This document shows positions 29,194-53,188 of a DNA stretch of 64,000 nucleotides, in pieces. A program made the translations under genes and the position numbers. The stretch's first letter is position 1; each line of letters begins with the position of its first letter. The notes beneath the pieces are model-generated. The model had not been told where the DNA came from. It ran no database searches and was given only the letters and a program-made list of their open reading frames with translations. This DNA is from a virus. The stretch covers positions 1-64,000 of the IMG/VR virus record IMGVR_UViG_3300030012_003189. The stretch is one strand, 5' to 3'.

Positions 29194-30590
29194 AATAGGA
29201 AATCCAAATTAGTTCTTGCTTTTTGAAAATACCACATCAAATTTCTGTTGTATTTAACCATATCAAAGTTTTTAAGGTGATTGTAATTATGCTCTATGAT
29301 TTCTTTACAATTGTACATAAACGTTTCTCTTTGTTCAGTTGTTAGTTGTGATAAATTTATTATTTCTTTCAAAACCATTTTATATCTTTTTTCAGGATCC
29401 TCTTCACAATCGTAAGTTTCATCAACATAACCAGTTTCACCAAATGTTTTAAAACCCATATTGTGTAACCAAGTTAAAGTTCCACTTGTTGATAGAACTA
29501 TAAATGGATGTTGATGTAATATTGGTTTTATAACTTTTTCAGAAACATATCCTATTCTCTCCGTCTCATAAAAGAAGGATTCAGCTACTACTGTAAATAG
29601 CGTATCTTTATATGGAATATCAGTTTCCATACCTTCTCCTCTAACATCCCAAAGTCTTTCATAATCTATTGTTTTTTTAGGAGCTTTTTCAATTAAATCT
29701 TCTAGTATTTTCCAATACCTTTGAAACTTAGGACTATCCTGCTCAAACCATTGTTCCATTTTAATCCAATTGTTTTTTATATGATTTACATCTTCGTAAC
29801 CTTCATGTAGATAAAAGTCATATGATACATTATTATTTTCTATTAAATCTAAATAGTGTAAGTCACATAAAAGTTGTGTTCTATGAGGTTTTTGTTCTCT
29901 AGTCAATAAATTAAATGATTTTTTTCTACCTACATTAAAATTTTGCTTATACAAAGTTTCATTTGGAAAATTATCGTAATGTAATTTATTATGAAAAAAT
30001 GGAATGGACCATAAATATGGGATAACATTAACACACTTATCAGTTCCATATTTTTCTTTATAATCTAAGGCATATTCTGAAATTCTGTAATTTGCATGTA
30101 TCAAAAAAGTTTTATCTAATTTTAGCTCCTTTTCTAATAACCAATTATTTAGATTGTTAAAACTTTCATAAGGTAAGTATCCTTCAGAACTAGCATTTAT
30201 AATTAAATATACATTTGGATTGTATTTTAGGTGTTCAATAATTTTATATGGTATTTTGTTAAATACACTATCGTTATCAAAAGAATCCGCAGGCCATGAA
30301 TATATGTTAATCTGATAAAAATATAAAGTATCTTCTCTTTGATTTGGATTTTCTAAAAAATCAAAAGTAGGTATTATCTCAAAGTTATCTTCAAAATAAC
30401 CTATGTTACTCTGATAACATTGGGGTTGTGTTTGTTCATTTTGTCTAACAAAATTATCTATATAATCAAATTGGTTTTTAAAAAAATCAGTTTTGTTAAA
30501 ATAACTTGATTTATTAAAATCCATACAATTAATACCTAATTGTTTTCCAAAAAAATAATCTTCTAAAAATACTATATCTTTAAGCTTCAT
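29190..30590 (-). CDS. Putative glycosyltransferase, ISEKVVK family (paralogue 2)
   Basis: A 466-residue paralogue of the gene downstream. The same landmarks are seen: LTREQKPHRTQLLCDLHYLD, FTVVAESFFYETERIGYVSE then KVIKPILHQHPFIVLSTSG and LHNMGFKTFGE, ending with NYNHLKNFD. The tandem arrangement points to duplication followed by divergence; the two probably use different acceptors or donors. Overlaps the E1-beta-like gene upstream by 11 bases. Confidence 0.5.
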   Translation of the reverse strand: MKLKDIVFLEDYFFGKQLGINCMDFNKSSYFNKTDFFKNQFDYIDNFVRQNEQTQPQCYQSNIGYFEDNFEIIPTFDFLENPNQREDTLYFYQINIYSWPADSFDNDSVFNKIPYKIIEHLKYNPNVYLIINASSEGYLPYESFNNLNNWLLEKELKLDKTFLIHANYRISEYALDYKEKYGTDKCVNVIPYLWSIPFFHNKLHYDNFPNETLYKQNFNVGRKKSFNLLTREQKPHRTQLLCDLHYLDLIENNNVSYDFYLHEGYEDVNHIKNNWIKMEQWFEQDSPKFQRYWKILEDLIEKAPKKTIDYERLWDVRGEGMETDIPYKDTLFTVVAESFFYETERIGYVSEKVIKPILHQHPFIVLSTSGTLTWLHNMGFKTFGETGYVDETYDCEEDPEKRYKMVLKEIINLSQLTTEQRETFMYNCKEIIEHNYNHLKNFDMVKYNRNLMWYFQKARTNLDFLL

Positions 30591-31128
30591 AATATAACTC
30601 TGGGTATTCTACTAATATGTGTATTCCACCTTTTGATAATGCATTTTTGTATGCTGGTAAAATCTTATCAGGTGAATCTAATTTTACAATTGTTGAGTTT
30701 GTTACCATCTGTTCAAATGCATCGGTATAATCTGCTTTATGTTGATGACCAGGGTCTAATGGTTTATCACTTCCCTTACCAACTCTAACAATTACATTTG
30801 GTTTCCACTCACCATCAGACATTGCCTCTAATTTATCTAAGTGATTTATTAATTGATTTGCTGCGCAGATTAAAAAATCCCATCTTGGATAAAATGAAAC
30901 TACTCTATGACCTGTCATACTAAGACCTACAGTCATTCCCATTTGTACCTCTTCCATTACTGGTGTCTCAATCATCCTTTCCTTTGGTAATCCTTCAATT
31001 GTTTTACTCATTGGGTTACCATAATAAACTATCTGTTGTCCAATAAAAATAGTAGATGGGTCATCCATACAAAGTTTCATTGATTCTGTAAGTGCATCTA
31101 CATATGGTGTGAATTCTGGTTTACTCAT
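30580..31128 (-). CDS. ThDP-dependent E1 beta-like subunit (pyrimidine-binding domain only)
   Basis: A 182-residue protein matching the N-terminal pyrimidine-binding domain of 2-oxoacid dehydrogenase E1 beta / transketolase-like enzymes: PVMEEVQMGMTVGLSMTGHR (about 51-70, the Glu being the likely cofactor-activating residue), FYPRWDFLICAANQLINHLD, and VIVRVGKGSD then DPGHQHKADYTDAFE. The C-terminal transketolase domain of normal E1 beta (~325 residues) is absent. A matching alpha-like subunit lies 5 kb away in the same cluster (36022-36669). Such pairs in sugar pathways can transfer an acyl group from a 2-oxoacid to a keto sugar (AviB1/AviB2 of avilamycin is the precedent I know). Role here is inferred. 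Confidence 0.7.
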   Translation of the reverse strand: MSKPEFTPYVDALTESMKLCMDDPSTIFIGQQIVYYGNPMSKTIEGLPKERMIETPVMEEVQMGMTVGLSMTGHRVVSFYPRWDFLICAANQLINHLDKLEAMSDGEWKPNVIVRVGKGSDKPLDPGHQHKADYTDAFEQMVTNSTIVKLDSPDKILPAYKNALSKGGIHILVEYPELYYEA

Positions 31129-34875: not shown

Positions 34876-36037
34876 TTTCTATTTGTTTAAATATTCTATA
34901 TATACTTTCTTCCTTTAAGGATTTAAAATGATTGTGATTATATATACATATATCTTTTGCTAATTTATACATTTCATTAACCTCACTTATATCCTTTTTA
35001 TTAATACTTAATATTAATTTTAATACTTTATCGTAGCGTTTTTCAAAATCAACCTCATCATCGTAACTTTCATCCCATATAAAATCAAATGTTTTAAATC
35101 CTAATCTTTTTAGTTCTTTTAAATATCCATATGGACCTAATACTATAAAAGGTTGGAATCCTACCAATGGTTTAACTACTTTTTCTGATATAAACAATTC
35201 TTCTAATTCAAAAGAAGTTTCAGTTACGATATTTATGCACGAATCTAAAAATAACTCTTTTTTGAAGTTATTATGTGTTCTATCCCATTCAACTAGCTTA
35301 CCATCTCTTTTTATATGATGAGTATCAATTTCAATTGGTAGTTTTTTTTCTAAATTATCACAATAATCTTGACCATATTTTTCAGTAAGTTCTCTAATAT
35401 CATATCCAACAGTTTTATAAACATTTAGAAATGAAAATAACGAATCATCAAAATTATTTTGATTCCAATCTAAAAATAATCTGTATCTATGATACTTTTC
35501 CAACGTTCTGTTAAAACATAAAAATTTATTGTTTCTGAAAGTATCTAACTCATCAATTAATATGGGTTCATTTGAATATTTTAATTCTTCTTGAAATTTA
35601 TCATGCCCATAAAAAATTTCATTATAATTTTTAGCAGATTCTTCTAAGAAAAAGTTGAACACAAAAGCTTTTGAATCCAATCTCATATTAGTATCCATAA
35701 AAATAACTTTATTATTTAATTTTTCTTGGATAATATCATAATTATCATCGTAAAACTTTTCATTAGTTGGGTCTGCAGTACGCATGTACGCTATTTTAAA
35801 ATCATCTCTATCTAATAAAGATGTAATTTCTTTTTTTGATAAAATATAATCTAAAAATTCTTCTGGATGCTCAACTTCGTAAAATAGTATATTCTTATAA
35901 CCATCTTTCAATTGTAAATTTGATGTTATAGAATAATTATTTTCGATTCTATTTTTTAAAGGGCCTCCTAAGCAAAAATGCTCCCCATTTATATCACTTG
36001 TATTTTTTTCAAAAACAAAATTTAAAATACTACCCAT
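34865..36037 (-). CDS. Putative glycosyltransferase, ISEKVVK family (paralogue 3)
   Basis: A 390-residue paralogue of the genes at 27820-30590. Landmarks: FLCFNRTLEKYHRYRLFLDW around 172; INIVTETSFELEELFISEKV at about 280; VKPLVGFQPFIVLGPYGYLK; ELKRLGFKTFD, ending HNHFKSLKEE. It is shorter at the N-terminus. It overlaps the E1-alpha-like gene upstream by 16 bases. Probably a cytoplasmic glycosyltransferase; donor and acceptor unknown. Confidence 0.5.
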   Translation of the reverse strand: MGSILNFVFEKNTSDINGEHFCLGGPLKNRIENNYSITSNLQLKDGYKNILFYEVEHPEEFLDYILSKKEITSLLDRDDFKIAYMRTADPTNEKFYDDNYDIIQEKLNNKVIFMDTNMRLDSKAFVFNFFLEESAKNYNEIFYGHDKFQEELKYSNEPILIDELDTFRNNKFLCFNRTLEKYHRYRLFLDWNQNNFDDSLFSFLNVYKTVGYDIRELTEKYGQDYCDNLEKKLPIEIDTHHIKRDGKLVEWDRTHNNFKKELFLDSCINIVTETSFELEELFISEKVVKPLVGFQPFIVLGPYGYLKELKRLGFKTFDFIWDESYDDEVDFEKRYDKVLKLILSINKKDISEVNEMYKLAKDICIYNHNHFKSLKEESIYRIFKQIENEW

Positions 36038-36669
36038 TTTCCTGTTCCATAATGTGGATATTTTGAATTATATTTGTAATAGATTACATCTTCTGGTATT
36101 TCTCTCTGCTTATTACCCCATGTATCTAATGTAGGTGTGTTAGTACTTACACCATTATCTTCAACTATAAAATAAAGTGGTAAATCATAATTTCTAGCAT
36201 ACTTATGAACTTCATAAAAGATACCTGTTTCAAAAGTCATATCCCCTATAAAGCACCAAATTTTATTTTTACTATTTTGCATCTTCGCTGCTTTAGCAAC
36301 ACCCAATGCTATTGGTAATATACCAGTTACAATTGCTGAAGAGTAGAATTTAGAATCTTTATCTATTATTGTAATAGATTTTCCATCTAAAATTTTTTCT
36401 TTTAGTGTAGATGGGTCTACTCCATGTAATAAAGCATGATAATGAGACCTCCAAGTTGAAAATACCCAATCATCAACTCCTATTTTATTAAATACTTTTA
36501 TCAATTGCTTCTCATTACCATGAGATAAATGAATAGGTCCTCTGATTTCTCCATTCTCCCAATGTTTTATAATATCATCTTCAAAATCAATTAAATCTTG
36601 CTCAGACCAATTACCATCAACCCATCTATCTTCGTGATAATCTAAATTAAGAATTTTTTCCATTTGCAT
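36022..36669 (-). CDS. ThDP-dependent E1 alpha-like subunit (short)
   Basis: A 215-residue protein with the E1-alpha pattern: VFSTWRSHYHALLHGVDP around 69-86, SAIVTGILPIALGVAKAAKM around 111-130, and the thiamine-diphosphate/metal motif GDMTFETG (Gly142-Asp143) ... LPLYFIVEDNGVSTNTPT (Asp171-Asn172). Normal E1-alpha chains are ~320 residues or more; the C-terminal region is missing. Together with the E1-beta-like gene at 30580-31128 it could form a minimal 2-oxoacid decarboxylase/acyl transferase. No E2 or E3 is present, which argues against a pyruvate dehydrogenase role. It overlaps the RmlC-like gene by 23 bases. Confidence 0.7.
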   Translation of the reverse strand: MQMEKILNLDYHEDRWVDGNWSEQDLIDFEDDIIKHWENGEIRGPIHLSHGNEKQLIKVFNKIGVDDWVFSTWRSHYHALLHGVDPSTLKEKILDGKSITIIDKDSKFYSSAIVTGILPIALGVAKAAKMQNSKNKIWCFIGDMTFETGIFYEVHKYARNYDLPLYFIVEDNGVSTNTPTLDTWGNKQREIPEDVIYYKYNSKYPHYGTGKWVVF

Positions 36670-38216: not shown

Positions 38217-38586
38217 ATTTTAATTGTTTTAAAATTTCATATTCTTCTGATGTTAGTTTTATATTGTTTGGATTCTCTAAAATAAATTCAATATTTCCAT
38301 TTTCTATCGAATCTCTTAACAAACTTATCGTACTATCTGCTAAGTTAGATAGTCTACAATCTTTATCAATTACAATTTTAAATACACATTCACTAAGGTG
38401 AAACTTAGAAAAGTCCCTCATTGTAGTTTTTTTACAATCTGTAGTATCAATATGTTCTTTTGTAAATGTATTCTCATCATAATTTACAATCATACTGTTT
38501 GCAAATAAAGTTTTTAGTTTTGTTTTATCAAAACCATTCTTAACGTATCCATCAGGACACAATATTTCAAATAAATGTTTTTTCAT
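38206..38586 (-). CDS. Unknown protein in glycan cluster
   Basis: A 126-residue protein (MKKHLFEILCPDGYVKNGF) that I do not recognise. It has several Cys (9, 50, 68, 77) but no clear metal motif, mixed alpha/beta character (ECVFKIVIDKDCRLS) and no membrane segment. It overlaps both neighbours (11 and 20 bases), so it is translated with the LamG-like protein upstream and the epimerase downstream. Confidence 0.5.
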   Translation of the reverse strand: MKKHLFEILCPDGYVKNGFDKTKLKTLFANSMIVNYDENTFTKEHIDTTDCKKTTMRDFSKFHLSECVFKIVIDKDCRLSNLADSTISLLRDSIENGNIEFILENPNNIKLTSEEYEILKQLKYEI

Positions 38587-39343
38587 CTCCTAAAATATTT
38601 ACATCTAATGTTCTCCAAGGCTCAACATCATATATTTTTTTAATTAATCCAATGTTTATTTCTAAATTAAAACAATTTCCACTATTATCGTATGCCTTAT
38701 ACTTTGTTAATTCATTTGTGTTTATCAAAAATATGGAATTTGCTAAAGGTTTTACAAGATTTCTTTTTACATCTTTATTTCTTTCTAAAAAATCTTCAAT
38801 TCTTTGAAATGTATAAAGTTTATCAAATAATCCAGCTCTCCACAATGTATATTGGCAAATAGCTTTGTGTTCATCTGTTAAATCATGTTCATAGTTTGCT
38901 ATTCCAAAGTTAAATGGGGTATCGCTATAATCATGCAACCCACCAATATAGTCTATTTCTTTGGAAAATGTTTTATCATCATCTAAACAAGTTAATTTTG
39001 CTTTAAATCTTTTTGATATTGAATCATGACTTATAATCATAACATATCTTTTATATAAGTTTTCTTTACCAACATAAAATGATATATCATTAAAATTAGA
39101 TTTACCATCAATCACATCCCAAAAATCCCAAGTGAACATATTTCTATTTTTAGCAAATACACCCATATGTTTACCTGGTCTACAAAAAATACAATGAGTA
39201 TCTCCTGTATTTATTTCATCCATTTGAAATTCTACATAAAAAGTAAAATCTTTTTGTGTAGATTCCCAAACATTTGTATCAGTAAATCTATAACTATTAT
39301 TATTTGTAATGAACCAAGGTCTTTTGTGTAATATCTTTAACAT
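38567..39343 (-). CDS. LamG/concanavalin-like protein (tentative)
   Basis: A 258-residue protein. DFTFYVEFQMDEINTGDTHC near 32-51, HMGVFAKNRN, RYVMIISHDSISKRFKAKLT and FNFGIANYEHD follow the strand order of LamG-type jelly rolls (exposed-residue strand, ligand-like strand, velocity of alternating hydrophobics). The GT7 proteins in this cluster carry inserted LamG-like domains, which supports this reading, but the match is weak. It overlaps the radical SAM gene by 7 bases. No signal peptide. Confidence 0.4.
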   Translation of the reverse strand: MLKILHKRPWFITNNNSYRFTDTNVWESTQKDFTFYVEFQMDEINTGDTHCIFCRPGKHMGVFAKNRNMFTWDFWDVIDGKSNFNDISFYVGKENLYKRYVMIISHDSISKRFKAKLTCLDDDKTFSKEIDYIGGLHDYSDTPFNFGIANYEHDLTDEHKAICQYTLWRAGLFDKLYTFQRIEDFLERNKDVKRNLVKPLANSIFLINTNELTKYKAYDNSGNCFNLEINIGLIKKIYDVEPWRTLDVNILGDEKTFI

Positions 39344-40758
39344 AGTGATTTACATTTATGGTAAAAATCTTCCAATTCAGGAAAAGTTTCTAAAAAGTTT
39401 GTATTTCTTCTCATATCATGAGCATTAAAATATCTATAAAAATTTTGCATTGACATTTTAAGATGCTTAGGGTCTACATCAGCGTTCATCCAATCATATA
39501 TCCTTTTTACTTTTTGTATCTCTATATCTGAGTATCCAATGTAGTTATGGTCAAAAATTGGAACTCCTTGAAAGAACATAAGTTTGGATTGTTCTAATAC
39601 AGTATCTTTCCATTTTTTATCTTGTAGTAATTGTACACTTTGATGCCAAGGATATCTTAGGTATGATGAATCTAAAAATACAGCTGATGCCCAATATCTA
39701 TCTGATGTTCCATACTCTTGTTTTAAATCATAAATACCATCTATAAGTTTTATATAATTTGGAACAGAAAGAAGTCCGTATGTTCCCATTACCGTAATAT
39801 TAACTCTTGGACACTTAGTAAGAATTTTATTTAAATTATCCCAAAATCTATTAAATTCTAAACCAGTCCTTATGTACTCAGCTTGTTTACCCCAAGTATC
39901 AACTGATGTAAATATGATAAATTCTTTAACTCTATCTTCATCAGAAATTTTATTTATTTTATCGATAAATCTATCAACCAATTTATCATCAATACCTAAA
40001 TTAGAATTTATTGCTAATTGTAAGTTTTTATTTGGGTTTGGTTCTTCTATTATATAATCTAATACTTTCCATGTATCTTTTGATAGTAATGGTTCACCAC
40101 CAGTAATTCTAAATGTATGTAAATCTCTATATAAATCTGGCCACCATTTCCAAAATGCTTCTACATATGGATTATGTTCAGTTTGTTTTTGAGGCCACTT
40201 ATCTTCATCAATATGTCTTTGTTTAGAATTAAAATCATCTGAGGTTGGATAACCTCCAAACTTTTCAACTTCTTGTTGCCAAGTTGTTGAATATGCAGGT
40301 CCACAATAAGAACATTTAAAATTACAAGTGTGAGAGAATGCTACCTCTACATATTTTGGATTATAATCAGCTCTCCAGTCTGATGTTGCTATTTCATCCA
40401 TATGAGGTAAAGACCAACTTTCATTTGATTTAAAAACTCTATCTGAAAATTGATTTGAATTATCTTCTACATTCCAACAATAATCGCACTCTTTAGGTCT
40501 TTTACCTTCAAGCATTTCTTTCCTTCTTCTTTTCTTAAATGAAGTATTGTGAAGTGCGGATGGATTTCTTTGAATCTCCCTTACAGGTATTTTATGTGTT
40601 TTAGGATGGTGGCACGAATGTGTATGACCAGTTTGCATTTGTATTGTAACCTGTGTCCATTTTGCTAAACAAAATCCACATCCAACTTTATCTAATTTGT
40701 TTTTTGTGGATACGAAATGTTTATTTTCGTGATGATTCCAATTATTATCTGTTGACAT
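39337..40758 (-). CDS. Radical SAM enzyme with additional cysteine clusters
   Basis: A 473-residue radical SAM protein. FeS motif CNFKCSYC (Cys145, 149, 152) and FRITGGEPLLSKDTWKVLD for SAM binding. The N-terminal region has further Cys pairs (GCGFC at 27/30, SCHHP at 49, CDYCW at 91/94), suggesting an auxiliary cluster domain (SPASM/twitch-like but N-terminal). Proteins of this layout are common in marine T4-like phages; the substrate is unknown. Here it lies beside LamG-like and GT7 genes, so sugar or peptide modification of a surface component is the likely context. Confidence 0.78.
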   Translation of the reverse strand: MSTDNNWNHHENKHFVSTKNKLDKVGCGFCLAKWTQVTIQMQTGHTHSCHHPKTHKIPVREIQRNPSALHNTSFKKRRRKEMLEGKRPKECDYCWNVEDNSNQFSDRVFKSNESWSLPHMDEIATSDWRADYNPKYVEVAFSHTCNFKCSYCGPAYSTTWQQEVEKFGGYPTSDDFNSKQRHIDEDKWPQKQTEHNPYVEAFWKWWPDLYRDLHTFRITGGEPLLSKDTWKVLDYIIEEPNPNKNLQLAINSNLGIDDKLVDRFIDKINKISDEDRVKEFIIFTSVDTWGKQAEYIRTGLEFNRFWDNLNKILTKCPRVNITVMGTYGLLSVPNYIKLIDGIYDLKQEYGTSDRYWASAVFLDSSYLRYPWHQSVQLLQDKKWKDTVLEQSKLMFFQGVPIFDHNYIGYSDIEIQKVKRIYDWMNADVDPKHLKMSMQNFYRYFNAHDMRRNTNFLETFPELEDFYHKCKSLC

Positions 40759-40771
40759 ATATTAATACATA

Positions 40772-42214
40772 TTAAAACTTTACATTTATCATTTTTGCTT
40801 TAGGGTTGATTTCCTCTATACTAACCAACTCATATTTTAGCTGCTTGATACCATCAGATTTGTAATCCCACTTACCTTGCTGCATTTCCAAAACATATCT
40901 TCTTTCATTTCTTGCTGTAGTTTCTCCTTTAGCCCACCTATCTTGTCCTTTATTATCTGATATCAATCCTTCATCTTTATGGTGTAGACAAAACATTCTC
41001 CCCTTTCTTCGATGTGGAATTGGTGGTTGTGATAATTTGATTATTTCTTCTCCAGTAGTTATTGTTTCCACTTCACCATCATAACTATTACCACTAATAT
41101 CCTTTGCTTCACCATTTTCAAATTCATAGTGAAGTTTTAAACCATCGGATGGAATATTATTTGTTAATTGTTTTATTTCATCATCTTTTAAATTTCTATC
41201 CCATAACATTACCTTTGCTATATCACCTTTAAAGAATCTACTAGCATCTCTTTCACCAACAGAAGTTGTGTGTCCTAACGTGAATGGCATAGAACCATAC
41301 CTTTTTAACTTACCATCAAAACTAAGTGGTGAATGAGTTCCATGTCCATGTCTTGCATCAGATTCCGTACCATTTAGATAAAAATGTATTTTATTGTTTT
41401 CAGTATCAATTGATAATGTTATCCAACTCCAATAATTTTCATATCGTTTCATCCATTGATATAGAGCTTCTTTTTTATGATTCCATAATAGTGATGTATA
41501 TGCTCTACTGTTATTGTAACTCAATCCCCAATCATATCCTGCTCTCCTAATTATAGGATATTCACAAAATCTTCTATCCCAATCACCAACTAACCATATT
41601 GGAACTTTTTCTTCTTGTTGATTTGCCTTTACCAATACTGAAACTGTATGAGATTTTGATGTGAGGTGTGCAATACCTCTATCTACTGGGATTGTTACCT
41701 TTGAATTAGTACCATTGAATCTTAAAAAGTTTTGTTTACCAATTTCTACTTCTCTCACATTAGCATATCCTTCTAAATAACATCTCCAAAACAAATCATC
41801 ATCTTCCATACCCCAATCCCAATAATCATTTGAATATCCGTTGGTTTTTTCAACTTGTTCTTTGTTAAAAAGTACTGCTCCACCAAAATATTCCTGATAT
41901 TTTAGTTCATAGTTCATTTGTGATATATGAGTTGCTATATGAATAGGTGTTTTTTCAGGAAAAGAATAATCAGTTCCTTCTTCTGGTATCATATCGATAT
42001 CGTGCCAAACGATATAATCACAACCATCTTCGAATGCATGTTTTGCAGCTACATTTTTTGTTGCTCCTCTATTAAATAACTTATCATCTACTTGATGAGC
42101 AAAGTACATACAATAATCTATACCTTTAGACTCCAAATATGCTCCGACTTTTGGCACAAACTCTTTTAAGTGAGCTTCTCTATTTCTATATGGTACACAA
42201 ACTCCTAATTTCAT
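40772..42214 (-). CDS. Beta-1,4-galactosyltransferase-like GT7 with inserted LamG-like domain (A)
   Basis: A 480-residue protein. GT7 N-part: VPYRNREAHLKEF near 8-20, FNRGATKNV (46-54), the metal-binding HDIDMIP (70-76), YFGGAVLFNKEQVEKTNGYS (108-127), WDWGMEDDDLFWRC (131-144). From about 161 to 395 a LamG-like domain intervenes: FLRFNGTNSKVTIPV, ITLSIDTENNKIHFYLNG, FTLGHTTS, FKGDIAKVMLWDRNL. The GT7 fold then resumes with FCLHHKDEG (a metal-ligand His equivalent) and DGIKQLKYELVSIE. In vertebrate B4GALT these two parts are adjacent, so the LamG-like domain is inserted at one point. Likely transfers a hexose from a UDP-sugar; the LamG part may hold the acceptor. ATGA overlap with the gene upstream. 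Confidence 0.8.
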   Translation of the reverse strand: MKLGVCVPYRNREAHLKEFVPKVGAYLESKGIDYCMYFAHQVDDKLFNRGATKNVAAKHAFEDGCDYIVWHDIDMIPEEGTDYSFPEKTPIHIATHISQMNYELKYQEYFGGAVLFNKEQVEKTNGYSNDYWDWGMEDDDLFWRCYLEGYANVREVEIGKQNFLRFNGTNSKVTIPVDRGIAHLTSKSHTVSVLVKANQQEEKVPIWLVGDWDRRFCEYPIIRRAGYDWGLSYNNSRAYTSLLWNHKKEALYQWMKRYENYWSWITLSIDTENNKIHFYLNGTESDARHGHGTHSPLSFDGKLKRYGSMPFTLGHTTSVGERDASRFFKGDIAKVMLWDRNLKDDEIKQLTNNIPSDGLKLHYEFENGEAKDISGNSYDGEVETITTGEEIIKLSQPPIPHRRKGRMFCLHHKDEGLISDNKGQDRWAKGETTARNERRYVLEMQQGKWDYKSDGIKQLKYELVSIEEINPKAKMINVKF

Positions 42215-42371: not shown

Positions 42372-42848
42372 TTAATCCATTTCTAATTTTCTATCAAAGT
42401 GTTTTGCATCTTTTAATACTTGTGGATTTTGTTTGATTGTTTGCATAGAAATCATATCCTTCATCTTAGTTGTTGACCAACCATGTGCTCGAGTTGTATA
42501 AACAATCTTTGGTGGTAAGTCATCACCAGTAAATGATTTACCAATGTAATCTTCACCTAAGATTCTTATATCAGGTTTAAAAAACTCTATTAAACGTCTT
42601 AGCTCTTTTTCTGTTTGATATACATAAACTTCATCTATATATCTTATAGCCATCAATGTACGATATCTTTCATGTATAGGAATTACAGGTTTATATTTTG
42701 ATTTTCTATGTTCGGATGGGTCTCTATGTAAAAACACTATGAACTTATCACAATGTTCTTTTGCTGCTTCGAATGTGTAAATGTAACCCGGATGAATTAA
42801 ATCAAAATTACCAGCCGTAAATCCTACTATCTGTTTTTGTTTTTTCAT
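42372..42848 (-). CDS. Cytidylyltransferase-family nucleotidyltransferase (TagD/RfaE-C-like)
   Basis: A 158-residue protein with the HxGH-superfamily layout: GFTAGNFDLIHPGYIYTFEA (residues 9-28, the HIGH-like motif being HPGY), a conserved ERYRTLMAIRYIDEVYVY, and WSTTKMKDMI near 124-133 (the RTxGxSTT-like phosphate-binding segment). Family members make CDP-glycerol, CDP-ethanolamine or ADP-heptose. This activates a small alcohol or sugar phosphate for transfer. It sits between the two GT7-LamG genes and overlaps the upstream one by 4 bases. Confidence 0.8.
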   Translation of the reverse strand: MKKQKQIVGFTAGNFDLIHPGYIYTFEAAKEHCDKFIVFLHRDPSEHRKSKYKPVIPIHERYRTLMAIRYIDEVYVYQTEKELRRLIEFFKPDIRILGEDYIGKSFTGDDLPPKIVYTTRAHGWSTTKMKDMISMQTIKQNPQVLKDAKHFDRKLEMD

Positions 42849-44290
42849 AATTCTACTGTTATATAGTTAACTTTCTGATTTCCATAATCAGTACCAAATG
42901 TTAATTTGTTATCACTTATAGTTTTGAATTTTAATGAATCTATTCCATCCCTTCTCCAATTAGTTTTACCTTTTAGCACTTTATTATAAAATCTAAGTTG
43001 GTTTTTACGAGTTTCTGTATAAATCCATTTGTTTTCATAGAATCCATTATCGTCGTGATGTAACAATTCAAATTTAGAGTTTCTTCGCCACGGAATTGTT
43101 ATCTCTTGATAATCTTCAATATGTGGAGTTGATATTCTATTACAATGGTGTATTTTACCATTTGAACCATTACCAGTAAGTTCAATTAGTTTGTGATATG
43201 TAGATGCTTTAGCATCATATGCACATTCTAAACAATGTGGTGTGGTGTATCCATCAAATCCTTCGGTTACACCAATACCTAAGTTATTATATATGGATTC
43301 TACTTGACCCGGCTCTAATGAATGATTCCAAATTGCTACTTGATTTATTAAACCATTAAAAAACCTTCTTCCATTTTGTGAGTTTGGACCAGGCCTACCT
43401 AAGTAAAAATACTTTTGATTGTGGTATGGTAGCAATCTACCTTCAAATGTAGCTTCATCAATTAACTCACCATCTTGATATAGTTTTACAAACTTATTAT
43501 ACTGGTCTACAACTACCATAAGTGTAGTTCTTCTTTCTGTACCGATTGTTGATTTTAAACTTATACATTCTTTTTTAGATGTAAATGTTTCAAACTTAAA
43601 TCGTTTAAATGAATTAAATGTAAATCCAGTATCAAAACCAGGTACTGATAAAATAGAATATTCATCTACTTCTAAATTTTCACTTAAATCCATTTTGTAT
43701 GGTTCGCATTCTAACAACATAGTGTAATTATCCAAACCAAATTTCATCGGTATTTTAACTTCACTATCATATCCATTGAATTCTAAACCAGCGGTGTTCC
43801 AAGTTTTAATTGGTTGGTGTTTTAAATTTAAATCAAAAAAGTTTTCTTTACATCTGAATAGTAAATCATCATCTTCATATCCCCATCCCCAATATTCATT
43901 TGAGTACCCATTTACTTTGTAGTAATCCATTATAGGAAACAAAGTAACTCCTCCGAAATATGAATCGAAGATAATTCTTTTTTCTCCTACCTTAGATACA
44001 AAGTTTGTAGCAAGGTGAGTTGGTCTGTTTACATATGAATAATCAACATCCATAGGTAACATATCCACATCATGCAGAGCTACATAGGTACATTTTAACT
44101 TTTTTGCTCTTTCTACACCAATGTTAAGTAACTTACCTCTATTGAAAGGTTTATCATCAGCTTGCTCTACCACAATAATCTCATATGGTATCTTCTGCTT
44201 TTTAAGATGATTTGATATAGAAGGAATAAATTGGTTAAGATGTTCTCTACGATTTCTGTAAGGAACAACTATACCAATTTTATTTTTCAT
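42845..44290 (-). CDS. Beta-1,4-galactosyltransferase-like GT7 with inserted LamG-like domain (B)
   Basis: A 481-residue paralogue with the same architecture as 40772-42214. GT7 motifs: VPYRNRREHL (9-18), FNRGKLLNIG (49-58), HDVDMLP (73-79), YFGGVTLF (111-118), NEYWGWGYEDDDLLFRC (131-147). Insert (about 165-395): LEFNGYDSEVKIPM, VKLYQDGELIDEATF, FYLGRPGPNSQNGRRFFNGL, INQVAIWNHSLEPGQVESIY. The GT7 C-part resumes with FELLHHDDNG and DGIDSLKFKTI. The closer match of WGWGYEDDD and FNRGKLLN to the B4GALT family makes this the more canonical copy. It overlaps the gene upstream by 11 bases. Confidence 0.82.
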   Translation of the reverse strand: MKNKIGIVVPYRNRREHLNQFIPSISNHLKKQKIPYEIIVVEQADDKPFNRGKLLNIGVERAKKLKCTYVALHDVDMLPMDVDYSYVNRPTHLATNFVSKVGEKRIIFDSYFGGVTLFPIMDYYKVNGYSNEYWGWGYEDDDLLFRCKENFFDLNLKHQPIKTWNTAGLEFNGYDSEVKIPMKFGLDNYTMLLECEPYKMDLSENLEVDEYSILSVPGFDTGFTFNSFKRFKFETFTSKKECISLKSTIGTERRTTLMVVVDQYNKFVKLYQDGELIDEATFEGRLLPYHNQKYFYLGRPGPNSQNGRRFFNGLINQVAIWNHSLEPGQVESIYNNLGIGVTEGFDGYTTPHCLECAYDAKASTYHKLIELTGNGSNGKIHHCNRISTPHIEDYQEITIPWRRNSKFELLHHDDNGFYENKWIYTETRKNQLRFYNKVLKGKTNWRRDGIDSLKFKTISDNKLTFGTDYGNQKVNYITVEL

Positions 44291-44509: not shown

Positions 44510-45370
44510 TTAAATTTTTAATATTCCTTTTGTTAGTCTATTCCAATATTGATAATCCCAATGTTCGTTTTCAATAGGAATTTGTCTTTCCAATCCAAAC
44601 TTTACATTATCGATATCTATTTTCCAATCATTATCTTTGATTGCGTTATACATCTTTTTGTATTCTTCCCAAAAAGTGTAATCTTCTTCTGTTTCTGAAA
44701 CTTCTTTTAATCTTTCTAAAACAGTTGAATCCCATTTGAAGTGATGAACTTGTACAAATCCTTCACCTCTACCAGGTGGGTATCTTAAAGAGTGATTAAC
44801 ACCTTCTTCTCCCCACACATCCTTTCCATCAATATGTGCGTAATGCTGTCCGTTTGTTATTTGAATCTTTCCTTTCATTACACACACTTTATTTGGACAA
44901 GCTCCACTAAGTGGATACCTAAAAAAACCACTATATGGAAACGCTTCCCATATATTAGTTTCGCTATCTACAATGGGAAAACTCCCATCCTCTCCAATCC
45001 TATCCAAGAATCCACCTGTGATAAACTCCCATCCTTTTACTTCACATTCATCAATCATTTCTTCAATTGGCTTTGGATAAATCTGAATCTCATCATCATC
45101 TGATACAATCCACCAATCGTTTGGTTTAGTCATCTTTACTTCATTATAAAGTTCAGTTACCTTTTCCCAATGAAACTTTGGTTCAGTTACTACTTTGTAA
45201 GGAGTCAATCCCAAGTTTTCAATTTCCTCTAATATCCCATCGTTCTCATCTTGTCGATAAACTACGATAAAGATATTTTTTTCATCCACAAATTGCTGAT
45301 AGTATTTCAACATATGTGGTAACATAGTGATGTTATGCCCAACTACTGTTACTAAGTTTAAACCCTGCAT
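44510..45370 (-). CDS. GT-A glycosyltransferase-like protein
   Basis: I place the start at the ATG 45370 (MQGLNLVTVVGHN, 286 residues); the frame stays open upstream to 45448 but that would overlap the methyltransferase gene by 91 bases. Motifs: VVGHNITMLPHMLKYYQQ, IFIVVYRQDENDGI, DWWIVSDDDEIQIYP (a DDD/DxD metal motif), WEFITGGFLDRIGED, HHFKWDSTVLERL. This follows GT2/GT92-like proteins that begin with a V-x-N-E strand and carry a DDDE metal site. Donor and acceptor unknown. It overlaps the upstream gene by 13 bases. Confidence 0.6.
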   Translation of the reverse strand: MQGLNLVTVVGHNITMLPHMLKYYQQFVDEKNIFIVVYRQDENDGILEEIENLGLTPYKVVTEPKFHWEKVTELYNEVKMTKPNDWWIVSDDDEIQIYPKPIEEMIDECEVKGWEFITGGFLDRIGEDGSFPIVDSETNIWEAFPYSGFFRYPLSGACPNKVCVMKGKIQITNGQHYAHIDGKDVWGEEGVNHSLRYPPGRGEGFVQVHHFKWDSTVLERLKEVSETEEDYTFWEEYKKMYNAIKDNDWKIDIDNVKFGLERQIPIENEHWDYQYWNRLTKGILKI

Positions 45371-46137
45371 CTTTGTATCAGTGTCAACCCAGTTGTAGAT
45401 GGTTTTTCTTTCATCACCCCGTTGTTGAAGAAATTGAAAAGTTCCCATTCGTTACTTTCTTTTAGTTCTTTTATGAGTTTATTAGGTCCATCAAATGGAG
45501 CATGATGGTTTTTTTCTTTTACATCTTCCGTTATGATGAGTTCTTTTTCAAAAGATTCATCTGTATCGTGGATTGAAATTACACCATAATCCGATAAGAT
45601 ACTTGAGTAAAGAGTAAAATCATTTTTAACATCATCATACGAGTGACCCGCATCTATGTGTAGGTAATCTATCTTTATATCTTCCTTAACAAAGAAGTTA
45701 TAAAATGCGTTTTCGGTGGTATCTAAGATAACTCTACAATCAAAGTTTTTCCTAAAGAATGAACGTTTATCCGTCCAATCAGTAAACCCTCCTACTCCGT
45801 TATCTGCATCAACTACGAATGTAGTACCACAATCACCCCACTCCATCTGTTTTAGACCTGTAAATATTTTTTGGTCATGCAAATCTATTCTCGCTTGTGT
45901 CATTATACGAGGAATAAATCCACCACCACTTCCTAAACATACACATACCTTTGCTCTCATCATTTGTATGGTAGAATATATAATCATACCATCACCTAAA
46001 TGTAAATCGGTTGCTCCATGTGTCCATCTATATGGAACAGGTGCAATATCAGTAAAAGGTTTACCATTAGTATCCCTCTTTTTGACTTGATTGTTTGATA
46101 TGTATTTTTCTATTAAACCTAAATTAAGTAAAGACAT
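45358..46137 (-). CDS. Class I SAM methyltransferase (Methyltransf_24-like)
   Basis: A 259-residue protein with a Rossmann methyltransferase pattern: VCVCLGSGGGFIPRIM (motif I), DCRVILDTTENAF, IDYLHIDAGHSYDDVKNDF and LSDYGVISIHDTD. The last two segments (YLHIDAGHSYDxVxxDF...IxxHDTD) are typical of methyltransferases that modify sugars in surface polysaccharide clusters. It is the first gene of its unit: preceded by a TATATTTATATA box and a 57-base gap. Confidence 0.7.
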   Translation of the reverse strand: MSLLNLGLIEKYISNNQVKKRDTNGKPFTDIAPVPYRWTHGATDLHLGDGMIIYSTIQMMRAKVCVCLGSGGGFIPRIMTQARIDLHDQKIFTGLKQMEWGDCGTTFVVDADNGVGGFTDWTDKRSFFRKNFDCRVILDTTENAFYNFFVKEDIKIDYLHIDAGHSYDDVKNDFTLYSSILSDYGVISIHDTDESFEKELIITEDVKEKNHHAPFDGPNKLIKELKESNEWELFNFFNNGVMKEKPSTTGLTLIQRCRV

Positions 46138-47192: not shown

Positions 47193-49133
47193 TTATGGTT
47201 CAGGTGGTCCGCCAGGATCCCCACCATCATCCCCACTACCAATTAAATTAATTCTGAGTTCATCAGTTCCAGATGAATTTGGGAAAGTGAATGTTAAAAT
47301 TACTAATCTTGTTGAACCATGCTGTGCTTCAGTTTTTGAATTAAAGAAAAATTGAGTTTGTGCATTTGATGTAGGAGTACTGGTGGTTGTACTTAAACCA
47401 GTTAATGTTTGTGAACCTGCACCATTACCAGATGAATCAAAATTTGTACTTAAAGCTCCATAAGTCGTTGAGTTGGCACTTACTGAATATGTTGTAGCAT
47501 AATTCGTTTGAACTGCTATTGGGAAATATGTAGGTGAGTAATGATATGGATTATTAGCTATTTGTGTAATGTTTCTACTTACCAATACTAAAGAGCCAAA
47601 TGAACCAGACCATGCACCACTTAAATTTGTAAAGATTCCAGAATCAACTGGTCTAGGTTGTTGTGAAATATTGAATTGTAAATGTTCACTTGTACCAGCA
47701 GTAGTAGAACCTATATCAAATGTACCAAATTTCTTAGCTCCAGTATTCCCAGCCGCAAATATACTGAAATTTTCGTTACCAGTGCCAGTTTTTGGATTGT
47801 TGTTAAGATTACTAAAGTTTGAACCTTCGTAGAATGTAAATTGACTACCTGTTATAGATGCGTTCCAAGCTAAGTTTGATGTTAAATCAATTGTATTATC
47901 ACCTGATGATAAACTACCACTATGAGTAAATACCATTTCATCACCACTACCTGGAGATGGATTGGATGTGAATGTAACTTGACCTGATTGTTCTAAACCT
48001 ACAGTATCATTTGCACCAGCATCAGTTGTAACTGATACTACTGCTAATCGTTTTGAAACACTACTATTTGAAGCCGTAGGGAATGCATATATAACATCAT
48101 CGCCTGATAAACCACTTATTGAAAAACTAGCTCCACTACCATCTGAATTAGTTGATATCTCAAATTCTAAATCAACCATACCAGGATTATCATCTGAATC
48201 TGCTTGTACAACAGCTGCTGACCAACCAACACTTTCTGCATTCACATCTATTGAAATTGATTTTCTAACACTTGTACCTGATTGATTAGATGTCCATTGT
48301 AACGGGTCTGTTCCAACACCTTCTCCACTAAGTGATACTGTTTCATTTGGTTGTTGAGTAAATGTTTTTGTACCAGTTACAGTACCACCAACATTTCCAT
48401 ATTGTCCTCCACTACCATCTAAATTAGTAGAAGGTACACCCAAAGTAAAATTAACTGTTTGAGATGTTGCAACTCCAACTGTACCGAATGATGTTGGTGT
48501 AAAGAAAACTTGCCCCGCACTTGGTGAAGCATTTGATGTTTGTGAAAATGTTGTTGTGTTTGATATTGCTCCTATACCTGTATTACTATCATTTCCTGGT
48601 GTAATTGTTACAACACCTGTATTTGGATTAATATTTGCTATCCCACCAGTCCAATCATCATATTCTAATTGATATGCACCTTGCGTAGAAGTAACTGTAC
48701 CACTAATTGTTGAACCTGCATTAGTATATGTTACCCCAGTTGCACTTTCAGCTGGACAAGTAAATGAAACATTAGCAGTTCTTGTAGTGTTAGTTAAAAC
48801 TGCGCTAAATGGTGAACTCACATAACTAACAGTTAATGAAGGTACAGGAGATGAACCTCCCGTTGCAACAGGATTAGATGTAATACTTCCGTTTTGTGTG
48901 TTTACAGAAAATCCAGTAATACCAAAATCTTCGAATGTGGCGGTTGCACTTGAACCAACTGAATCTCCATATAATTCACCCAAACTAAGTCCCGCTACTG
49001 AATCATCGTAATTGGGAGCACTTAACTCAAAAGAAGTTGCTATGTCTTGAAATGAAAGTTTAGCAGTAGCTGAGTTAGACAACTCCTCATTTATCATTGA
49101 CATTGATATCGGACCTGATGCTGGTAATGCCAT
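47193..49133 (-). CDS. Tail adhesin with BACON/Ig-like repeats
   Basis: A 646-residue Ser/Thr/Gly/Asn-rich protein. The start MALPASGPISMSMINEEL is a common opening of phage tail tip proteins. Several ~90-residue beta repeats follow, with FSQTSN, FTQQPNE, LEQSGQVTFTSNP and FNISQQPRP marking repeat ends, and DNTIDLTSNLAWNASITG as a BACON-like core. It ends in a Gly/Pro/Asp-rich tail (GDPGGPPEP). BACON domains are typical of Bacteroidota and their phages, so it likely binds host surface sugars. It overlaps the S74 fibre gene by 1 base. Confidence 0.65.
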   Translation of the reverse strand: MALPASGPISMSMINEELSNSATAKLSFQDIATSFELSAPNYDDSVAGLSLGELYGDSVGSSATATFEDFGITGFSVNTQNGSITSNPVATGGSSPVPSLTVSYVSSPFSAVLTNTTRTANVSFTCPAESATGVTYTNAGSTISGTVTSTQGAYQLEYDDWTGGIANINPNTGVVTITPGNDSNTGIGAISNTTTFSQTSNASPSAGQVFFTPTSFGTVGVATSQTVNFTLGVPSTNLDGSGGQYGNVGGTVTGTKTFTQQPNETVSLSGEGVGTDPLQWTSNQSGTSVRKSISIDVNAESVGWSAAVVQADSDDNPGMVDLEFEISTNSDGSGASFSISGLSGDDVIYAFPTASNSSVSKRLAVVSVTTDAGANDTVGLEQSGQVTFTSNPSPGSGDEMVFTHSGSLSSGDNTIDLTSNLAWNASITGSQFTFYEGSNFSNLNNNPKTGTGNENFSIFAAGNTGAKKFGTFDIGSTTAGTSEHLQFNISQQPRPVDSGIFTNLSGAWSGSFGSLVLVSRNITQIANNPYHYSPTYFPIAVQTNYATTYSVSANSTTYGALSTNFDSSGNGAGSQTLTGLSTTTSTPTSNAQTQFFFNSKTEAQHGSTRLVILTFTFPNSSGTDELRINLIGSGDDGGDPGGPPEP

Positions 49134-52100
49134 TATTTATCCTTTAATTTATTTTCTAAGTTTTCAATCTTATCTGATAATTCTTTGATTGCTTCTAAAA
49201 GTAAAGGTGTTAACTTTTCGTATTTAACTCCAAGAAATTTATTGTGTACATTTTCTTTGACAACCTCTGGTAATACTTTTTGTATTTCTTGCGCAATCAC
49301 CCCAATATCTCTGTTTGTTCCATATGGGTGAACTTTTGGAGTATATCCATCTTTCCAATTAAATAATATACCTCTAAGATTTTTTACTTTTTCTAAAGAG
49401 TCAGGTATAGTAGTAATATTTTCTTTTAATCTTTCATCAGATGAAGCAAATGCTGTAATATTACCCGATGCTTCGATTGAACCTGATACAGATAATGCGT
49501 TAGCTGCTGATTGGTCTGCTGGTAATTTTACAACTTTTAAAGCTGATGGGTTTGCATCGGATACAACCTGAAATCCTCCTCTACTTATTTCAGTAAATGG
49601 TTGGATAGTGGTACTTGTTGGTACACTTACTGAAATTGCTCCAATATCAGGTGTTCTAAATGTAGATGAAAGTGTAACACCCTGCGCAGTTGCTGACATA
49701 AAAGATGAACCATCTTTAATAAAAGTTTCAAATGAATAATTTTCACCATCTTCTAAATCTACTCCCAAACTAAATGCGTGACTACCTGATGTACCTAATG
49801 TATGAATAGCTTGACCACCACCTACATATGAAGTACTTAATGTCCTTTCAGTTGAAGATACGACTGTACCATCACTCTTTTTTATTCTTATACCAATCTT
49901 ACAACTGTTTGACCCGAATCCAACTACACCATTAAAAGATTCCATAACACTGCTTACAAATGGATTAGATGCAGTTTGTGGGTCTAATGTACCAGTAAAA
50001 GTTGCGGTAACACCATCAAAATCAGCTGATACATTTCCCGCATCAGGAAATCTTAAACCACTACCACCTGTAGTTATAGTTTCAGTCATCGTTGTTGGTG
50101 ATTGTGTAATTGATAATGAGTGTGCAAAGAAATCAGTAAAACTTTCTAAATCACTATCATTTTGTGAAGTAAATGATGAACCCAACATTGTAGGTGCACC
50201 TGATAGTACAATTGGAGATAAACTATTTTGTGAACTTAAAGTTACAACATCTACAGATGAAGAAACAAATTTTATCTTTGGTGTACCTGAACCATCTAAA
50301 ATAAGAGCTGAATCACTACCAAGTAATTGGTCACCTTGAATTGTAAATCCACCAATACTACCACCACTTGCACTTATATCCCCCTTAATATCTGCATCAT
50401 TTGCAATCATCCTACCCGCTGGTGATACGGAGAATACATTATCTTTGGATGTAATACTTACATGTTCAAATGAAGCAGATTGTGCTTCAACTACAGAACC
50501 ACTAACAGAAAAGTTAGATGCACTTATTTCTAAACCACCAGCACTATCTCTTTGTTGGAATTTAATAAATTGGTTATCACTACCTACTCTAAAGTAAAAT
50601 TTCTTTTGATTGGGTTCGGCTACCCATGCATTATTTACTACACTATTTACAGCGCCACTACCAGATGTGGTTAATAAGAATCCACCAACATCATCACCAT
50701 CAAAAGTCCAATCACCAGATTGACCAGAATCTAATTGAACTGCCTTTGTAGCACCAGCATTTACAAATCCTATTAATTTATTATCATCTAATGTAAATCC
50801 ACCAATGTTACCTGTACTTGCTGTTATATCACCTTTTATTTGTAATTGCTCACCTGTCCATTCTAAAGAATTATCACCAGTACCAGATAAGAAAAACTGA
50901 CCACTTGATGACATATAAGTTTTCCATGTATCAGACTCGTAAAATCCTAAATTATCTGCTCCCAAAAATAATCCATCCCCACTTGGTGTTGGGTTTTTTG
51001 TTAACTTACCAGTAGAAGGGTCTACTGTACCACTAACTGATGCTGATAGTGCTGCATTACCTGCGAATGCCGAACCACTAAGTACAGAATTATCTCCAGC
51101 TATTGTAGCGAATGCCGAACCACTTAATACTGCATTTTGATTTCCAGTAATAGCTATGGATGCTGATAATGAACCACTCAATACTGCATTTTCACTTCCA
51201 GTAATAGCTATTAATGTAGCAGCTGATGCTGATTCAGCTGCATTAGATGCTGATTGTGCTCCAGCAGCTAATGAACCAGAAATATCTGCTCCTAAAGATG
51301 CAGTAGCAGATTGTAGTGATGCTGTAGCTTGAGCTAAGGATGATGTAGCTACTGCTAACTCTTGTGAGAAGTTTGTTGGGTCTCCTAATCCAGCAATTGT
51401 TGATGATTGAATATTTGTACTAGCTATCTGTACCACCCCACCCTCAACATTTAAAATATCACCAGCATCTGCTATACCACTATTCTTAACATTAATTGAT
51501 GCTTCTAATCCTAACGCTTGATTACCTTTTGTAAATGGTACACTTTGTTCTACCTTTATTGGAATGAAGTTATTATTTATATCATAAAACTCTACCCTAA
51601 AATCAAATTGTTCTGTTGGGTTCTTTCTTGGGATATCTACAATCGCTGTATATTCATCAGGTGAATAAGAAGATTCTTCAGCATTCTTTAATGATAACCT
51701 ACTAAATAAAAATCTACCTGTAGTTGAATCAGTATTTGCTTCTACTCTAATTTGGCATTTACCAGTTGTTTTTGCAAAAAAGTTCTTTTGTATTCTTTGG
51801 ATATTACCCAATCCAGTTGGGTCTCTATCGATAGAACCACTAAGTAAATCTATAGATTGAGAAGTTACTAATGCGTTTGTTGTATTGTTTGATGATGTTA
51901 CAATCAAAAATCTAAGTGTATCTGTGCTTATTGATTCTCCTGAACCAGAATATCTTGCTGTAAATCCAAATGAATATTCAGAACCACTTACTATTTCAAA
52001 CTCACCAATAGCACCATTCGATTCTATAGAATGATTTCCTTTTACTTCTAATGAGTTGATTAATTTATCATTATGTATTTCTACACCCGATGATGTTGTG

Positions 52101-53188
52101 TAATAAACATCACCTGCTTCGGATACTATATTTTCTCTTCTTAATTTACCATAATTAATTACAGTTCTATTTTCTACAGAAAAATCTCTTAATAATTCAG
52201 TAGCATCTAATTTATTTTCTTGTACAACTTGAAAATCTCCTAAATCGTTTCTTGACTTCCTAAATATTTTTATTCTAGCTACATCTCCAGTAAATGTTTT
52301 TAAATTTTCTAATCTTATTTCAGCATATGATGCAGTAACATTTGAACCAGTCACAACTGCATCTTCTACAGATTCAAATTGTAATGAATAAGATACTGGT
52401 TGGAATTCATGCACTATATTGTTTATAAGAAAGGGTTTTCTAACTAACATCTCATCTGCATTAATTACTTCTAATACTGAAGATGAATATCCCAATGAAG
52501 GAATTTGAAGAGTTGTATTCTCCTCCATTGATTGAGTGAACTTATTTCCTTCTTCTAATTTTATTCTGTATTGTGATGGAGCTGTCCAAGTAGAAAAATC
52601 AGAACCTGAATCTGGTACTTCGGGTATACCACTAACTGAACCTGATTTGTTCAATGTCATTTCTGTTTTTACTAATAGTGGTTTTTCTATTTCAGTAACA
52701 GAAAATGATGGTCTTTTAAAAAATCTTACTTGTGTTTTATTTGGAATCTTTGGATTGATTTTGAATTGTTGAGTCCATCTAACATTTTGTATCCCTCTAA
52801 ATTCTTCAGGTACTTTCCTTTCCCTACCTCTATCATCTATATATGTTTCTAATTCAGCAAGTATTCGCAATGTACCAACTCCTATCGGAGTATCATCATA
52901 AACATGAATTGACATTACTATAGAGTTACCTTCTCTAAATGTTCTATCTCCTTGCTTTCCAGGTTCAATATATAATGGGTTTCCATTTACATCTAAAGCT
53001 TCAAATCTAACTTTTGAACCTTTAACAAAAAAAGAACTACCTTCAAATAAAAAAGCATTCTTACCACCAGTTAGTGTTCTTTCTAACTCAGTAACATTAA
53101 AATAAGGGGAATCTGATGAACTATCATCAATGAAAACCTTAGCTTTTCCTAAATTTAGTAAAGGTGAATATTTTTTTAATACTGCCAT
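49133..53188 (-). CDS. Tail fibre / tailspike with C-terminal S74 chaperone domain
   Basis: A 1351-residue protein. N-terminal ~550 residues: beta-rich virion-anchoring region (FIDDSSSDSPYFNVTELE...). Then a low-complexity Ala/Ser/Gly region (about 600-720) with QNAVLSGSAFAT-type repeats and ASLGADISGS. Then knob-like segments repeating NIGGFTLDDNKLIG / SIGGFTIQGDQLLG. The last ~103 residues (SSDERLKENI near 1249, NRDIGVIAQEIQKVLPEVV, VKYEKLTPLLLEAI) form a peptidase S74 intramolecular chaperone, with Ser in SSDERLK and Lys1255 as likely self-cleaving pair. Trimeric after release. It probably recognises the host. Its ATG is only 1 base from a TATATTTATAT-like box. Confidence 0.85.
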   Translation of the reverse strand: MAVLKKYSPLLNLGKAKVFIDDSSSDSPYFNVTELERTLTGGKNAFLFEGSSFFVKGSKVRFEALDVNGNPLYIEPGKQGDRTFREGNSIVMSIHVYDDTPIGVGTLRILAELETYIDDRGRERKVPEEFRGIQNVRWTQQFKINPKIPNKTQVRFFKRPSFSVTEIEKPLLVKTEMTLNKSGSVSGIPEVPDSGSDFSTWTAPSQYRIKLEEGNKFTQSMEENTTLQIPSLGYSSSVLEVINADEMLVRKPFLINNIVHEFQPVSYSLQFESVEDAVVTGSNVTASYAEIRLENLKTFTGDVARIKIFRKSRNDLGDFQVVQENKLDATELLRDFSVENRTVINYGKLRRENIVSEAGDVYYTTSSGVEIHNDKLINSLEVKGNHSIESNGAIGEFEIVSGSEYSFGFTARYSGSGESISTDTLRFLIVTSSNNTTNALVTSQSIDLLSGSIDRDPTGLGNIQRIQKNFFAKTTGKCQIRVEANTDSTTGRFLFSRLSLKNAEESSYSPDEYTAIVDIPRKNPTEQFDFRVEFYDINNNFIPIKVEQSVPFTKGNQALGLEASINVKNSGIADAGDILNVEGGVVQIASTNIQSSTIAGLGDPTNFSQELAVATSSLAQATASLQSATASLGADISGSLAAGAQSASNAAESASAATLIAITGSENAVLSGSLSASIAITGNQNAVLSGSAFATIAGDNSVLSGSAFAGNAALSASVSGTVDPSTGKLTKNPTPSGDGLFLGADNLGFYESDTWKTYMSSSGQFFLSGTGDNSLEWTGEQLQIKGDITASTGNIGGFTLDDNKLIGFVNAGATKAVQLDSGQSGDWTFDGDDVGGFLLTTSGSGAVNSVVNNAWVAEPNQKKFYFRVGSDNQFIKFQQRDSAGGLEISASNFSVSGSVVEAQSASFEHVSITSKDNVFSVSPAGRMIANDADIKGDISASGGSIGGFTIQGDQLLGSDSALILDGSGTPKIKFVSSSVDVVTLSSQNSLSPIVLSGAPTMLGSSFTSQNDSDLESFTDFFAHSLSITQSPTTMTETITTGGSGLRFPDAGNVSADFDGVTATFTGTLDPQTASNPFVSSVMESFNGVVGFGSNSCKIGIRIKKSDGTVVSSTERTLSTSYVGGGQAIHTLGTSGSHAFSLGVDLEDGENYSFETFIKDGSSFMSATAQGVTLSSTFRTPDIGAISVSVPTSTTIQPFTEISRGGFQVVSDANPSALKVVKLPADQSAANALSVSGSIEASGNITAFASSDERLKENITTIPDSLEKVKNLRGILFNWKDGYTPKVHPYGTNRDIGVIAQEIQKVLPEVVKENVHNKFLGVKYEKLTPLLLEAIKELSDKIENLENKLKDK

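Follow-up and report, generated by a model that had tools for sequence, protein, structure and literature searches.

The gene occupying positions 40772-42214 on the minus strand of the window (64,000 nucleotides in total) raises the question of whether a lectin-type domain can reside within the catalytic domain of a glycosyltransferase, and what such an arrangement might accomplish. The window comes from a virus record of 102,940 bases that encodes T4-type portal, terminase, major head and tail proteins. When only named cultured phages are considered, the closest counterparts of its head protein are in Microcystis phage Mel-JY01 (51%) and the Flavobacterium phages immuto (49%). The gene, here termed A, begins with an ATG codon and encodes 480 amino acids. 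Its product carries a GT7 (β4-galactosyltransferase-type) core formed by residues 1-158 and 398-480, which is split by approximately 240 residues of a LamG/ConA-like jelly roll.

The N-part (41741..42214, minus strand) includes the UDP-binding PYRNR, FNRG, HDIDM (the DxD motif), YFGG, and WGMEDDD sequences. It is matched by the Pfam models Glyco_transf_7N (residues 2-80, 57 bits against a cut-off of 27) and Glyco_transf_7C (residues 92-152, 66 bits against a cut-off of 23). A phmmer search with A gave strong E-values only for animal B4GALT1/7 (E ~1e-27), and these matches cover residues 2-169 only. The insert (residues ~162-397, 41024..41731, minus strand), which is missing in uninserted relatives, matches the full Laminin_G_3 profile (positions 1-151) over residues 167-348 with 44 bits, exceeding the cut-off of 27.6. 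The Pentaxin model reaches 14.9 bits on A, which is under its cut-off of 25, and 25.1 bits on the relative L110. The C-part (40775..41023, minus strand) includes PHRRKGRMFCLHH with the C-His H412, a helix at residues 430-444, the sequence SDGIKQLKY, and the final two strands. The first-pass annotation had located the B4GALT-type core motifs within residues 1-145 and some 235 LamG-like residues in the middle of the chain. The motifs it quoted are present, with the N-part extending to about residue 158, and the LamG-like stretch is borne out by the Laminin_G_3 score and ends near residue 397. Its mention of an HH metal ligand in the C-part is correct in that histidines occur there, but the conserved one is the second, H412.

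An AlphaFold prediction of the whole chain, based on an alignment of 146 relatives, has a mean pLDDT of 94.4 and a pTM of 0.88. Folded alone, the insert yields values of 91.5 and 0.89, indicating a self-standing ConA-like jelly roll, which is the outcome that had been anticipated for the middle of the protein. This isolated domain resembles the Bacteroides carbohydrate-binding protein 4dqa (TM 0.66) and the pentraxin 4pbo (TM 0.66/0.69). More broadly, pentraxins, sialidase lectin domains, and 4dqa share the fold of the insert (TM about 0.5-0.69) together with weak sequence similarity, although they are stand-alone or separate domains rather than parts of a glycosyltransferase. A pentraxin calcium-binding motif is not evident in the A insert on inspection by eye. 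Foldseek aligns A with B4GALT1/7 (E 1e-13) through the N-part only, mostly at 1.2-2.3 Å over ~150 columns and for B4GALT1 at 1.2-1.4 Å over 150 columns, and returns separate matches of the middle to carbohydrate-binding and pentraxin jelly rolls. The predicted secondary structure following the insert consists of a strand (406-409), a helix (430-444), and two strands (462-470 and 473-479), and the same order of helix and strands is found at the C-terminus of B4GALT. The C-part is assigned to the GT-A fold only by this order and by a sequence profile.

That profile was built solely from inserted phage proteins. Against the whole PDB, it matches B4GALT1 entries only, with weak E-values (0.07 and up), and on 6fwu the match spans residues 224-268, which is past the N-part match and hence in the expected place. 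At an E-value of 0.01, a search of the 2,952 ORFs in the fetched loci matched 334 GT7 ORFs, including 74 of the 103 that lack the insert. The remaining 14 matches are ORFs truncated at locus ends, which we interpret as the final portions of such genes; none of the complete non-GT7 ORFs among the 2,952 was matched. The profile derived from inserted proteins therefore recognises the C-termini of uninserted GT7 proteins.

Alignments across the junction reveal how the two parts relate to continuous enzymes. In about 100 uninserted bacterial and viral GT7 proteins, which differ from A in having no insert, the N- and C-profiles abut with a gap of about -2 residues. The bacterial sequence RR.G.F..L.H directly follows ED.DL..R, whereas the phage protein has at this point the insert and then HRRKGRMFCLHH, and the RR.G.F..L.H motif is common to inserted and uninserted proteins across the junction. 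Continuous GT7 proteins of ~220 amino acids (L112, L113, L274, and the giant-virus protein A0A481YZG5) provide the closest GT cores and have the same motifs flanking the junction, and the A N-part is up to 47% identical to GT7 proteins from bacterial genomes. A continuous catalytic domain is usual in GT7, though not required, and A departs from this pattern by carrying ~240 residues between EDDD and C-His. The uninserted relatives and B4GALT have unbroken GT parts, as had been stated for known B4GALT enzymes, and the earlier proposal of a domain insertion at one site withstood its own tests, namely the structure of the middle and the completion of the GT7 core by the C-part. The LamG-split GT7 architecture of A is nearly certain. 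Chance can be excluded because 256 distinct viral ORFs share this architecture, and because a second copy in the window (copy B) gives the same three Pfam matches and is 29% identical to A by BLASTP over its whole length including the insert.

Active-site residues are conserved on both sides of the insert. The DxD motif D72-I-D74 (41993..42001, minus strand) corresponds to D252-V-D254 of bovine B4GALT1, and W134-GM-E137-D138-D139-D140 (41795..41815, minus strand) corresponds to the W314 loop and E317-D318-D319. The metal-binding C-His H412 (40979..40981, minus strand), equivalent to bovine H347, is encoded after the insert. In all 129 proteins of the A and B clades, residues P8, R12, F47, R49, D72, D74, Y109, W134, E137, D138, and H412 are invariant. 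By correspondence with B4GALT1, P8, R12, F47, and R49 bind UDP, and D74 and H412 bind the metal. Residue Y109 is equivalent to bovine Y289 and human Y285, the residue that favours Gal over GalNAc, and because it is conserved in all 129 proteins, it suggests that the donor is UDP-Gal. In human B4GALT1, Trp310 and Tyr285 participate in donor and acceptor binding, and a lid (residues 338-365) closes over the substrates, with the end of the lid forming part of the acceptor site (PMC6198961).

In five proteins of a divergent third clade, C, which represent two or three lineages, D74 or D138 has been lost, and H412 is missing from precisely these five (L041:2768-4258, L055:2785-4275, L067:2775-4229, L080:2749-4206, and L103:1737-3221). 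This joint loss is what is predicted if one site is shared across the insert, with few independent events. To judge from these substitutions, the five copies are possibly non-catalytic, binding-only relatives.

Scans of IMG/VR yielded 171 stretches related to A and 24 related to B; with the family profile, there were at least 553. A census over 357 loci identified 368 distinct GT7 ORFs. Of these, 256 viral ORFs carry the LamG insert and 40 lack it, 62 from bacterial genomes lack it, nine that have it are in records titled bacterial, and one viral ORF is cut by a locus end. The position of the insert is identical in all 256 inserted viral ORFs, in which its length ranges from 209 to 332 amino acids (median 246), and none of the 368 GT7 ORFs carries a non-LamG insert at this site. 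In a tree of the GT core, which was rooted at midpoint only, all 38 inserted representatives form one clade without outsiders (support 0.927) that is nested among uninserted proteins. Trees of the GT and LamG parts have 38 of 47 well-supported GT splits in common. Since all inserted proteins fall in one GT-core clade, a single insertion event preceded the triplication into A, B, and C, with each copy inheriting the insert. Separate insertions in A and B are ruled out by the tree and the common junction, and loss of the lectin from the uninserted relatives, rather than gain, is disfavoured by the nested position of the inserted clade under midpoint rooting. One phage (L103) is the sole carrier of basal members of all three clades.

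The insert is under purifying selection, though it evolves faster than the GT part. For clade A, the median dN/dS is 0.07 in the N-part, 0.18 in the insert, and 0.14 in the C-part, and identity is 57% in the insert compared to 76% in the GT part. Near-invariant aromatic and polar residues of the clade A insert (R223, N234, N235, S236, R237, Y252, W254, K256, W262, and N281) look like those of a binding site, although a protein interface would look similar.

Among the inserted genes in records titled bacterial, those of L107, L109, and L111 are judged by their gene neighbours to be on phage contigs binned into bacterial assemblies. In contrast, L110 is in a 3.4 Mb cellular genome that has neither the head nor the tail gene of the phage; L108 is a short contig related to it. 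The GT7-LamG genes of these cellular genomes (L110:5989-7428 and L108:409-1884) are followed by a GT2-type gene, and L110 additionally has an ABC exporter and an HlyD-type gene after GT7-LamG. A full-length relative is present in 2 of 40 genomes of the class. The cellular protein falls inside viral clade A in the GT-core tree, and transfer between phage and bacterium is probable.

A lies in a cluster of nucleotide-sugar genes. Copy B (42845..44290, minus strand) has its N-part at ~43811-44290, its LamG domain at 43169-43792, and its C-part at 42848-43099. Between the two copies is a cytidylyltransferase-like gene (42372..42848, minus strand) of the HldE-II / glycerol-3-phosphate cytidylyltransferase family, which matches PF01467 and PHROG 7878, and scores below cut-off for NCBIfam TIGR02199 and TIGR01518. 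The next gene after A (39337..40758, minus strand) encodes a twitch-domain radical SAM protein (NF033640, 349 bits with a cut-off of 170). This partner is present in 102 of 104 related loci, and tblastn found no match to it in 50,697 cultured phage records. Similarly retained, by 100 and 97 of the 104 loci, are a GT2-like gene (44510-45448) and a Methyltransf_24 gene (45358-46137), which occupy 44510..46137 on the minus strand. The cluster also includes sugar-nucleotide epimerases, a dTDP-sugar 3,5-epimerase, cytidylyltransferases, and a UDP-sugar dehydrogenase. Upstream of the cluster is a tail fibre or baseplate-type protein (49133..53188, minus strand) that matches PHROG tail families. All 19 records with a strong match to this tail protein have the homologue on the strand of the A gene, 8.8-19.6 kb upstream of it; the records are related, such that this reflects conserved synteny rather than independent evidence.

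Several known enzymes share features with A. B4GALT1/7 (CAZy GT7; PDB 1fgx, 2ae7, 4irp, and 3lw6) have the same GT-A fold, UDP-binding residues, DxD motif, WGxEDDD loop, C-His, DGL..L motif, and C-terminal strands, but they are membrane-anchored Golgi enzymes with a continuous catalytic chain and no lectin domain. GalNAc-transferases (GT27), MGAT4A (GT54), and POMGnT1 combine a GT-A enzyme and a lectin domain in one chain. However, they belong to other GT families, and in the literature consulted, GT-A enzymes with a lectin domain carry it at an end of the chain (a β-trefoil in GalNAc-transferases, CBM32 in MGAT4A) rather than inside the catalytic domain. PGAP4 (GT109) has an insertion in its GT-A domain, and this insertion has been proposed to position the active site at the substrate (PMC5785973). 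It resembles A in this interruption, whereas its insert consists of two transmembrane helices and the protein is eukaryotic and of another family. PDB, PHROGs, and NCBIfam yielded no GT7 protein with an inserted lectin domain, the best BFVD matches are to separate GT7 or LamG proteins without a full-length A relative, and the literature searched contained nothing on GT7 with LamG in phages. By sequence and active site, A is a member of GT7 in which the inserted lectin domain is the new part. An insertion located after the catalytic motifs and before the metal-binding histidine has been kept and triplicated across hundreds of aquatic (marine and freshwater) phage contigs, and the family thereby offers a natural setting in which to study how acceptor specificity arises.

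Textbook accounts of lid-controlled glycosyl transfer use GT7 enzymes as their model. The account that best explains the locus as a whole, in which we place about even confidence, is that A serves a T4-like marine phage as an inverting, metal-dependent GT7 galactosyltransferase, with a LamG lectin that grips the acceptor during synthesis of a phage-specific glycan. The pentraxin/LamG-type domain would be inserted in the connection into the C-His strand and acceptor lid, and both GT parts would fold together to create one active site. Chain order places the insert at the likely base of the lid. Because it enters just before the C-His strand leading into the lid, the lectin fold seems well placed to hold the acceptor, which would most likely be either a glycan under extension or a virion protein, glycosylated or bare, and this grip would restrict what A galactosylates. 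Gripping of the acceptor is plausible, and lectin domains steer catalysis in GalNAc-transferases (PMC4432651) and in MGAT4A (PMC9296478). Together with copy B (and C if present), the GT2, methyltransferase, radical SAM, and nucleotide-sugar genes would most likely build one glycan that is probably attached, as virions assemble, to tail proteins or other proteins of the particle. Mycobacteriophages glycosylate capsid and tail tube by means of phage-encoded glycosyltransferases (cited in PMC12363180).

The linkage to tail genes favours virion decoration, but modification of the host envelope is a real rival that we regard as possible, if somewhat doubtful. An enzyme of the same architecture could remodel lipopolysaccharide or capsule, for example to stop superinfection, with LamG binding the host polysaccharide. 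Phages do encode O-antigen-modifying glycosyltransferases, the nucleotide-sugar epimerase, UDP-sugar dehydrogenase, and dTDP-sugar epimerase genes around A fit an envelope target equally well, and the cellular relatives adjoin a GT2-type gene in both genomes and an ABC exporter in L110. The tail-gene linkage is nonetheless constant, and no polymerase, flippase, or membrane anchor was recognised among the Pfam-scanned neighbours. Tentative to a similar degree is the idea that LamG binds no sugar and serves as an oligomerisation or docking domain that holds A, B, and C, or an enzyme and a tail protein, together. Pentraxin-like domains are known to oligomerise, A and B adjoin and keep the same insert, and this insert evolves faster than the GT part. 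The binding-site-like residues in the clade A insert speak against docking, with the qualification already given for protein interfaces.

It is very improbable that GT7-LamG proteins have given up catalysis to become binding proteins. Some C-clade copies do lack the equivalents of the DxD motif, D318, or C-His, but the catalytic residues before and after the insert are intact in all 129 A and B proteins, including A itself. An artefact in which two genes were fused by assembly or by a wrong gene call has a negligible probability, even though every viral source is a metagenome contig, since the ~480-residue frame is unbroken in 256 distinct viral ORFs, shows purifying selection, and has a single origin in the tree.

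An extension of the acceptor-gripping galactosyltransferase reading, which we consider unlikely, is that LamG, positioned at the lid hinge, links closure of the lid to the binding of a ligand. Tandem copies with different inserts would then carry out successive, self-ordering steps in a template-free assembly line for virion glycans. If so, only phage glycans or virion proteins with the right sugar would be extended, and such an assembly line would be widespread in aquatic phages while so far unseen in cultured ones. The search found no relative of A in cultured phages, and the locus points to a phage glycan pathway beside tail genes that lacks a cultured representative there.

Other genes of the window have distinctive features. 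Two genes downstream of A is a stand-alone protein of 258 amino acids (38567..39343, minus strand) that has no Pfam match and shows weak similarity to the LamG insert (E 5e-4, 20 bits, and bias 11 with the insert profile). To judge from this resemblance, it is possibly a free lectin of the same pathway. The gene at 24119-27664 encodes an 1181-residue protein with an N-terminal cytidylyltransferase domain followed by ~1,000 residues without a Pfam match. Two small genes located apart within the sugar cluster (36022-36669 and 30580-31128) correspond to the two halves of a thiamine-dependent transketolase/E1-type enzyme.
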